From assembly GCA_021798675.1 (NCBI GenBank), contig JAJZGE010000172.1, positions 1-5,362 on the forward strand: a stretch of DNA of 5,362 bases, given 5' to 3'. How positions within the stretch are numbered: position 1 is the first letter of the stretch; each line of letters starts with the position of its first letter. A model generated the notes under the pieces. The model did no database searches. It was not told where the DNA came from and saw only the letters and a program-made list of their open reading frames with translations. This DNA is from Pseudomonadota bacterium (lineage in GTDB: Bacteria > Pseudomonadota > Gammaproteobacteria > Xanthomonadales > Rhodanobacteraceae). Shown here one piece after another: positions 1,890 to 4,049 of this stretch. The position numbers were made by a program, and so were the translations under genes.

Positions 1890-4049
1890 TTATTGCGCCA
1901 GGATCGCGCCGTAATGCCCGTTGACGTTGACCGTCACCTGGCCGTTCTGCACCGTGTAGGCGGTGCCCGAGAGCAGGTCGGTGAGGGTGCTGCCGTTGGT
2001 CACGCTGAGCTGCCATACCGGCACGGCGATGGAATGGGACACCGAGTCGTTGTTCAGTGCCACCGCGATGCGGTTGCTGGCGTCGAAGCGGCCGTAGGCA
2101 TACAGCTTGTTGGTGTCGTCGGTCAGCAGGGTCATGAACGAGCCGGTGCGCAGCGCGGGATAGGCCTTGCGGATCGCGGTGAGCTTGCCGGTGAGGGCCA
2201 CCGCGCTGTTGGTGCTGCTGCCGACGGTCCAGTCGAAGGTGCGGCGGTCGTCCGGATCGGCGCCGCCCTGCATGCCGTACTCGTCGCCGTAGTAGATCGT
2301 CGGCGTGCCCACGTAGGTCATCTGGAAGATCAGCGCGAGGTAGGTTTTCCAGATGTCGCCGCCGGCACGCGTGGCGAAACGCGGGATGTCGTGGCTGCCG
2401 AGGAAGTTGCTCATCGTCTCCTGCACGTTGCCGGGCAGGTCGGCGCGCGTGCCATGCAGCCACGCATCGAAGGTGCTGGTGCTGATCGAGGCCGGATTGC
2501 CACCTTCGTCCTCGCCGGTGATCCACTCCGACACCGGCTGGGTGAAACCGTTGTAGTTCATCGCGCTGTCCCACTGGTCGCCGTTGTCCAGCCAGGCTCC
2601 AGCCACACCCCAGTATTCGCCCAGGATTTCGGCGTCCGGATTGGTTGATTTCACCGCCTGGCGCAGCTCGCGCATGATCTGATGGTTGGTGTCGTCGCTG
2701 CCGTTGTTGCCGCCGGCGTCGAGGTACTGCGCGGCATCCAGCCGCCAGCCGTCGATGCCGTAGGCTGGCCCGAGGTAGGTTTTCACGACGGAGTCGGATG
2801 CGCCGTAGATCTGCTGGCGCACGGCCGAGCCGCTGGCACCGTAATCGAGCTTGGGCAGAGTGTCGAAACCGAAGAAGCTGCTGTAGCTGTTGGGCCACTG
2901 CTGGAACGTGTAGTAGCTGTACCACGGACTCTGTTGCGACTCGTAGGCACCCTCGGTGCGCCACCAGTGGGTCTTGTCGAACCACTTGTTCGAGTCGCCG
3001 GTGTGGTTGAACACGCCGTCGAGAATCAGATAGCCCCTGCCGTTGTCATCCGCTTCATGGCAGTCCTGCCGCCGCAAGGGTGATGGCGCACCCAGGCCGG
3101 CGTCAGGGCGCTCGTCTTGCTCCGACAAGGCGACTTGTCCGGGAGCATCGCCTTGCCCGCCGTGATGGGCGGATCCGCAGTCGCCATGGATGTCGCGGAC
3201 GAGCTTGCGCAACATCCCGTTGCTGCCAAATGCCGGGTCCACCTTGAAGTAGTCCTCGGTGTCGTACTTGTGCACGGTGGGCGCAAGGAAGATCGGGTTT
3301 AGGTAGATGATGTCCGCGCCGACGGTGTTCCTGATATAGCCGAGTTTCTTGTCGATGCCGGCCAGATCGCCACCGAAGAACACCAGGTTGTTGTCACCGC
3401 CCGCGTTCGCGAAAACGCTGCTGCCCCAGGCATGCTTCTCGGTGCAGTGGCCGTTGTAGCAGTACTGCCCGGTCTGCACGTCGTTGTGTGGATTGCCGTT
3501 GTAGAAGCGGTCGGGAAAGATCTGGTACATCACGCCGTTCTTCATCCAGTCCGGCGTCTTGAAGCCGGGAATGATGAAGAAATCGCCGAAGGGCTGCTCG
3601 CTGTTCCAGGTGCCCTGCGCGTTGTACCAGACGGTCTTGCTGCCATCGTTGATCTGGAAGCGGTAGTACTTTTCCGACGGGCTGGCCGGCACGGTGCCCT
3701 GCCAGAAGTCGAAGGTACCGGTGGCGTCATTGCGCACCCAGTGCATCGGCACCCAGTGGAACTGGCTGTCGCCACTGTCGTAGTACTTGATGTTGGCGCT
3801 GGTGATATCGCCCTTGAAGGTGCGAAAGGTGAGCGTGACCGGCTGCGTAGCGGTCGGTTCCGGCGCGCTGTCGAACAACGGCCCCTGGTCGTGGAACAGG
3901 CCGGCCCACTCCACGTTGTTGTCGTTGCTGGCGGCCTGCGCCGTGCTGCTGAGCGCCGCGCCTGCCAGCGTGGCGCAGAGCGCCAGCCACAGGGCGGTTC
4001 TGCTGCCGCGCCTCGTCTTGCCCTGATCAAACCTCGCGTGATCGAACAT
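1890..4049 (-). CDS. Secreted GH13 alpha-amylase/neopullulanase (TVA I-like) with CBM34-like N-domain and an in-frame insertion
   Basis: A retaining endo-acting enzyme expected to cut alpha-1,4 links in starch, pullulan or cyclodextrins outside the cytoplasm. Seen in the 719 residues: a Sec signal peptide (basic n-region, hydrophobic 19-35, AQA cleavage site near 37-39; C25 lacks a proper lipobox); a CBM34-like beta-domain about 45-165; a GH13 barrel from NGVMYQIFPDRF (171-182) with FFGGDLAGI (224-232), region I DGVFNH (344-349), region V LPKLD (398-402), region II GWRLDAAQ with nucleophile D438, region III ILGEYW with acid/base E478, region IV GSHD with D554; and a C-terminal beta-domain from about 625. 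Catalytic spacings of 40 and 76 match TVA I (D356/E396/D472, from memory). All key residues are present. Oddity: residues 289-331 are extra relative to the family (see the inserted element). The start is supported by an AGGAGG 9 nt upstream. A strong hairpin follows the stop. Subfamily GH13_21 is likely; exact specificity is inferred. Confidence 0.95.
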   Translation of the reverse strand: MFDHARFDQGKTRRGSRTALWLALCATLAGAALSSTAQAASNDNNVEWAGLFHDQGPLFDSAPEPTATQPVTLTFRTFKGDITSANIKYYDSGDSQFHWVPMHWVRNDATGTFDFWQGTVPASPSEKYYRFQINDGSKTVWYNAQGTWNSEQPFGDFFIIPGFKTPDWMKNGVMYQIFPDRFYNGNPHNDVQTGQYCYNGHCTEKHAWGSSVFANAGGDNNLVFFGGDLAGIDKKLGYIRNTVGADIIYLNPIFLAPTVHKYDTEDYFKVDPAFGSNGMLRKLVRDIHGDCGSAHHGGQGDAPGQVALSEQDERPDAGLGAPSPLRRQDCHEADDNGRGYLILDGVFNHTGDSNKWFDKTHWWRTEGAYESQQSPWYSYYTFQQWPNSYSSFFGFDTLPKLDYGASGSAVRQQIYGASDSVVKTYLGPAYGIDGWRLDAAQYLDAGGNNGSDDTNHQIMRELRQAVKSTNPDAEILGEYWGVAGAWLDNGDQWDSAMNYNGFTQPVSEWITGEDEGGNPASISTSTFDAWLHGTRADLPGNVQETMSNFLGSHDIPRFATRAGGDIWKTYLALIFQMTYVGTPTIYYGDEYGMQGGADPDDRRTFDWTVGSSTNSAVALTGKLTAIRKAYPALRTGSFMTLLTDDTNKLYAYGRFDASNRIAVALNNDSVSHSIAVPVWQLSVTNGSTLTDLLSGTAYTVQNGQVTVNVNGHYGAILAQ
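3061..3184. mobile_element. Putative 124-bp non-autonomous palindromic element inserted in frame in the GH13 gene
   Basis: The element is flanked by CATGG at 3056-3060 and CATGG at 3185-3189. The copies are exactly 129 bp apart, so element plus one repeat adds 43 codons (GH13 residues 289-331) without a stop. Removing that unit rejoins D-I-H to E-A-D-D-N-G-R-G-Y, a 7-residue loop before GYLILDG. I recall TVA I having DIH-STANGPK-GYLILDG, also 7. The centre holds a strong hairpin (3118-3147). A weaker outer pairing is GCAAGG (3074-3079) with CCTTGC (3151-3156), continued by TGATG (3081-3085) with CATCG (3146-3150); it competes with the base of the central stem. A second direct repeat, GCAGTC, lies at 3060-3065 and 3177-3182. 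The encoded stretch is rich in G, D, A, P, Q and R, unlike the family sequence around it. There is no transposase, so any movement would have been in trans. Insertion is the best reading; the element family is not recognised. Confidence 0.72.
3118..3147. repeat. Imperfect hairpin at the centre of the inserted element
   Basis: The left arm is TGCTCC-GACAAG (3118-3129), the loop GCGA (3130-3133), and the right arm CTTGTC (3134-3139), a CG bulge (3140-3141), then GGAGCA (3142-3147). That is 12 paired bases with one 2-nt bulge. The structure resembles REP/MITE-type palindromes and would also form in the GH13 mRNA, where it is translated through. Confidence 0.8.

Follow-up and report, generated by a model that had tools for sequence, protein, structure and literature searches.

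The closest solved relative of the enzyme studied here is the alpha-amylase TVA I, or neopullulanase 1 (1ji1), which we take to be alpha-amylase I of Thermoactinomyces vulgaris. Lineage-specific loop insertions in the TIM barrels of GH13 enzymes leave the core of the barrel intact. Rickettsia palindromic elements (RPEs) are about 100 to 150 bp long, lie in frame within genes, and are retained as added peptide (PMC10969869, PMC5656822); 44 integrations of ten families are reported for R. conorii (PMC10969869). We report here a GH13 gene with a long in-frame surplus in its catalytic domain. It lies in a stretch of 5,362 nucleotides, the whole of which was analyzed and is called the window below. 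The locus was compared mainly with L001, from the metagenome-assembled genome (MAG) Proteobacteria bacterium DX1.bin48 (G001), to which it is about 93% identical.

A 43-codon surplus in the GH13 enzyme

The features of the window that are discussed below are as follows.

1890..4049, minus strand: GH13 enzyme of 719 amino acids (open frame)
1679..123, minus strand: GH39-type gene, a neighbor in the same window
To 4382, minus strand: GH31 gene, partial, a neighbor in the same window
3057..3185, minus strand: 43-codon surplus in frame, residues 289-331 (from loop counts and the alignment with L001)
3030..3218, minus strand: hyperdivergent tract, codons 278-340 (from nucleotide differences to L001)
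3177..3179, minus strand: codon of Cys291, kept in L001 (alignment)
3060..3062, minus strand: codon of Cys330, kept in L001; possible disulfide partner of Cys291 at the base of the loop
3056..3060, plus strand: CATGG, copy 1 of a proposed target duplication; absent from L001
3185..3189, plus strand: CATGG, copy 2 of the proposed target duplication; absent from L001
3177..3182, minus strand: GACTGC, copy 1 (Asp-Cys), kept in L001
3060..3065, minus strand: GACTGC, copy 2 (Asp-Cys), kept in L001

The enzyme matches PF00128 (1.4e-51) and PF02903 (2.1e-7), both beyond their cutoffs. It thus has the alpha-amylase catalytic domain and the N-terminal Ig-like domain of the neopullulanase/TVA I-like class and, judged from its sequence, is a predicted starch degrader of the TVA I/neopullulanase type. 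Its cysteines are residues 25, 197, 202, 291, and 330 in the window and in L001 alike; Cys25 presumably lies in the signal peptide.

An earlier note on this DNA, made from the sequence alone, described a surplus of 43 residues at positions 289-331 with ordinary family sequence on both sides and an intact frame. These observations hold. The frame is open throughout 4049..1890 on the minus strand, and TVA I is homologous to the enzyme on either side of the surplus (1039.8 bits), aligning to residues 40-291 and 334-719 and lacking the 43 residues. The surplus, referred to below as the insert, is in frame and free of stop codons in both the window and L001, and its GC content is 70.5%, compared to 63.5% for the gene.

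One GH13 homologue (P0094) has a long insertion in another loop, directly past its WFDRYHWW segment. L002 (JAGWNA010000004.1) carries two adjacent GH13 copies; G001 has a single match to the loop part of the protein.

Distribution of the loop among relatives

The entire protein served as the query for a scan of the GTDB species genomes, from which 77 loci were kept out of the best 80 of 477 relatives. Loop length was counted from the His of the DIH motif to the next Tyr, which gave 61 copies from 54 of the 77 loci; the remaining 23 loci were unmatched by this pattern and are not in the count. The loop has 8 residues in 60 of the 61 copies and 51 residues in L001, whose enzyme is 93% identical to that of the window. 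No sister strain with an empty site came to light, and the closest short loops are those of L002 and L004, with 76% and 79% identity, respectively, in the best segment. In the family of G001, 78 of 233 genomes match the loop part of the protein, and only in G001 is the loop itself spanned by a match of high identity (77% over 101 of 101 residues). Matches across the loop in G113 and G135 (37 to 38% identity; E values of 7.8e-4 and 9.8e-4 per genome) lie opposite unrelated frames, which we recognized as a biotin synthase and a cyclopropane-fatty-acid-synthase-like protein, and were taken as chance.

The protein database gave 321 relatives, 120 of which were listed, and among these 120 the loop occurs in P0001 only. 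The stretch from the PAFG motif to the strand measures 25 residues in 112 of the listed proteins, 23 in one, and 68 in P0001; the six proteins unmatched by the PAFG pattern have ordinary loops on direct reading. A search by loop words through about 5.8 billion sequences, restricted to proteins that are 0.55 to 1.75 times as long as the enzyme and have short words in common with it, returned 27 candidates, among which P0001 alone has the loop. P0001 represents a cluster of 14 members. Its loop is identical to that of the window, and the two proteins differ elsewhere, at residues 167 and 525.

The alignment with homologues suggested in the earlier note confined the surplus to L001 and P0001 among the copies and listed proteins measured. 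Since the loop is common to the window and L001 and absent from the measured relatives, it was gained before the two lineages split, by an ancestor at the base of a small clade.

Apparent translation and predicted structure of the loop

The GH13 genes of the window and L001 differ by no indel. Across the 43 codons of the insert there are 11 synonymous changes and 18 amino acid changes. We compared these counts to a null model in which the observed base changes were reassigned at random among sites carrying the base in question. Synonymous changes exceeded the expectation of 5.3 or 4.7 (P = 0.010 or 0.005), and amino acid changes fell below the expectation of 21.7 or 22.3 (P = 0.060 or 0.035), which is borderline when taken alone. 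A stop codon was gained in about 47% of the null draws and is found nowhere in the insert. The changes fall on the three codon positions as 7, 15, and 14, lacking the usual excess at the third position. The excess of synonymous changes, the lack of stops, and the kept cysteines indicate that the insert is apparently translated, and the pattern as a whole points to translation under weak constraint, as seen in a comparison of two diverged versions with 36 nucleotide differences.

An AlphaFold2 model built from 60 sequences (mean pLDDT of 75.7 and pTM of 0.79) places the loop between helix 277-288 and strand 340-345, before barrel strand 3. Given how GH13 barrels are usually arranged, this would be the face opposite the active site. 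Residues 292-330 have a pLDDT below 50, as would be expected of disorder, and the loop is probably floppy; this stops short of proof, since only two of the 60 alignment rows cover the loop and residues 385-394 likewise score below 50. Cys291 and Cys330 may form a disulfide that closes the base of the loop.

Divergence of the loop and its flanks

The insert has changed far more than the gene around it. Divergence of the GH13 gene from L001 is 4.7% before the insert, 27.9% within it, and 5.5% after it, and its 129 nt hold 36 differences, whereas none of 2000 permutations gave more than 23. The divergent block extends about 30 bp to each side of the loop, so that codons 278-340 contain 49 differences in 189 nt (26%), in contrast to 92 in 1968 nt (5%) for the rest of the gene. 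Both kinds of change are raised: dS is 0.67 and dN 0.27 for the insert, compared to 0.16 and 0.025, respectively, for the remaining codons. The excess in dS makes it unlikely that relaxed constraint on the protein alone produced the block.

A tentative but quite possible reading is that one of the two lineages received codons from about 278 to 340 as a recombination tract from a diverged relative that carried the same loop. The sharp limits of the block, the rise in synonymous and nonsynonymous changes alike, which includes the native flanking codons, and the permutation result all argue for such a tract. However, a donor was not found among the loci, listed proteins, and family genomes searched. 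The polarized changes also do not single out either lineage: in the flanks, 7 are assigned to the window, 3 to L001, and 2 to both, compared to 35, 32, and 5 in the rest of the gene. Moreover, some noncoding stretches fall far below the average as well, with identity to L001 of 88.6 to 93.3% around the GH13 gene but 79.5% upstream of the GH39 gene; identity also drops toward the window's end, with the BLAST match reaching no further than base 122. A short imported tract would be the simplest account of the block. It is compatible with the gain of the loop in an ancestor, as it concerns the later divergence and not the origin.

We consider it improbable that the loop is a hypervariable, cysteine-stapled module whose DNA and flanks are repeatedly replaced or hypermutated. 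If it were, same-length versions differing by 26 to 28% would exist in a gene that is otherwise 95% identical, and the loop would be a diversifying one on an extracellular enzyme, perhaps facing phages, predators, or proteases.

Terminal repeats and searches for further copies

The earlier note read the two CATGG repeats, which are indeed present with a spacing of 129 bp, as a target duplication. In L001 both are absent: CCATG, which occurs twice on the coding strand of the window, is replaced by CCACG and CCGCG. The His codon of the DIH motif, which forms part of one repeat, is CAC in L001, L002, and L004 and in 53 of the 61 measured copies overall (CAT in 8 of 61). The CAT of the window is therefore probably a later change, and CATGG is probably not an original duplication. 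A 5-bp repeat at the fixed offset of 129, with 30 nt of slack, occurs by chance at 4.3% of places in the gene and 4.1% of places in the window, and one at any of eight in-frame offsets (24 nt of slack) occurs at 40% of places. As a target duplication, the repeat is weak.

GACTGC occurs at both ends of the insert, 117 bp apart, and is kept in L001; 6-bp repeats with eight in-frame offsets to choose from occur at 17% of places. The 6-bp inverted repeat CATGGC/GCCATG at the ends of the window insert is absent in L001. Internal inverted repeats reach 16 nt at 75%, and the predicted RNA fold of the insert has an energy of -72.8 kcal/mol (z = -1.9), with 11 of 200 shuffles as good.

When the window version of the insert was searched in six genomes, the one full-length match in G001 was the orthologous place, and the next best match in the six genomes had an E value of 0.009 (for G001, scores were computed for all 28 candidates). 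A search of three genomes with the L001 version recovered that version itself, again with a next best E value of 0.009 (for G001, scores were computed for 40 of 53 candidates). The 232 other genomes of the family, with only three candidates scored in each, likewise gave no second copy. The family-wide DNA search gave matches with an E value of 0.001 or better in 9 of 233 genomes, namely, the full-length match in G001 and matches of 25 to 45 bp in eight others, compared to about 0.2 nominally expected. Though above this expectation, the short matches were taken as chance in GC-rich DNA. Seven of the eight (L147-L153, the other being in G207) were read, and no GH13 frame was seen at these seven; among their frames, we recognized two as LigD-like and two as penicillin-binding-protein-like.

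Searches for a source gave a similar result. In the window and eight nearby loci, blastn and tblastn (E < 0.2) found none beyond the known pair, and among the plasmid matches listed (20 of 29 records), there were only pieces of 22 to 25 bp. The window had no match to Rfam at gathering scores, and the publications found in a nonexhaustive literature search do not name the loop. An intein was ruled out on size.

The window also holds a MITE-like element at 4210-4391, about 180 bp long, with 25-nt inverted ends that are 84% complementary. In eight genomes queried, it was found at seven places in G001, three of them full length at 91 to 95% identity; the eight rows returned are seven places, because one place was matched on both strands. 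G006 has one full-length copy (80%), G002 has pieces, and the five other genomes gave no match. L001 lacks the element at the corresponding position. Lying about 1 kb from the insert, the element provides an example of how a repeat appears in a comparable search.

Origin of the loop

The surplus is probably best explained as a lineage-specific loop extension, in which a single in-frame gain gave a translated, flexible surface loop that later diverged. The main alternative for its origin is the one proposed in the earlier note, an in-frame mobile element of the RPE or intragenic MITE type with CATGG as its target duplication, other copies of which would reside in the genome of the window organism or have decayed. 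Like such elements, the insert is in frame and open throughout, and the distance between the CATGG copies equals the length of the surplus. The inverted ends CATGGC/GCCATG pair in the predicted fold, which is itself fairly stable against shuffles, MITE-like elements do exist in this lineage, and more genomes than expected carry short matches. However, the CATGG copies and the inverted ends are both missing from L001, the His codon argues that CAT arose later, and neither G001 nor, with three candidates scored in each, the 232 other family genomes yielded a copy at another site. A mobile origin is therefore unlikely on our assessment. Of the earlier proposal, an insertion that keeps the frame, is specific to a lineage, and lies within the catalytic domain of a GH13 enzyme is supported, and a mobile element with a 5-bp target duplication is not supported.

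Programmed ribosome bypassing is known from phage T4 gene 60, and the ribosome might in principle skip the insert between the matching GAC TGC pairs. The identical hexamers at both ends in both lineages and the stable predicted fold would suit this, but the segment keeps the frame and has no stop codon in either lineage and shows excess synonymous change, which makes skipping very unlikely. Still more remote is an artefact of assembly or binning. L001 is a MAG, but it has a diverged loop of the same length, and P0001 has exactly the loop of the window yet differs at two other residues, which renders an assembly error unlikely and the artefact as a whole scarcely credible.

For the loop extension, we propose the following course. 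About 43 codons would have been gained in frame once, in the common ancestor of the organisms of the window and L001, in the loop ahead of barrel strand 3 of the GH13 enzyme. The DNA was most likely acquired by illegitimate recombination or another single event rather than as a transposing repeat, as suggested by the lack of copies. The frame, the codon changes, and the structural model are consistent with translation of the insert into a flexible and hydrophilic loop on the protein surface, remote from the active site; a Cys291-Cys330 disulfide may close its base. Since then, divergence has been about fivefold higher across the loop and some 30 bp to either side than in the remainder of the gene. 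Relaxed constraint, combined with a short recombination tract acquired from a relative carrying this loop, would probably account for the difference.

Comparison with known systems

The gain of this loop is new as an instance and ordinary in kind. In two lineages, a catalytic barrel carries a long stretch gained in frame, whose length has been kept while its sequence changes fast, and this offers a case for studying the birth of new loops.

The insert resembles RPEs in lying in frame within a gene, in its similar length, and apparently in being retained as added peptide (PMC10969869, PMC5656822). However, RPEs form families, whereas the insert is found in one gene only, with no second copy in the genomes searched. 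The parallel drawn in the earlier note is thus not borne out, and on present evidence the insert does not extend RPE-like elements to gammaproteobacteria.

A further comparison is with the loop insertions of other GH13 TIM barrels. The insert is similar to these in that it is placed between secondary-structure elements and leaves the core intact. It differs from them in being long, in being bracketed by two cysteines, and in being unusually diverged between two close relatives.
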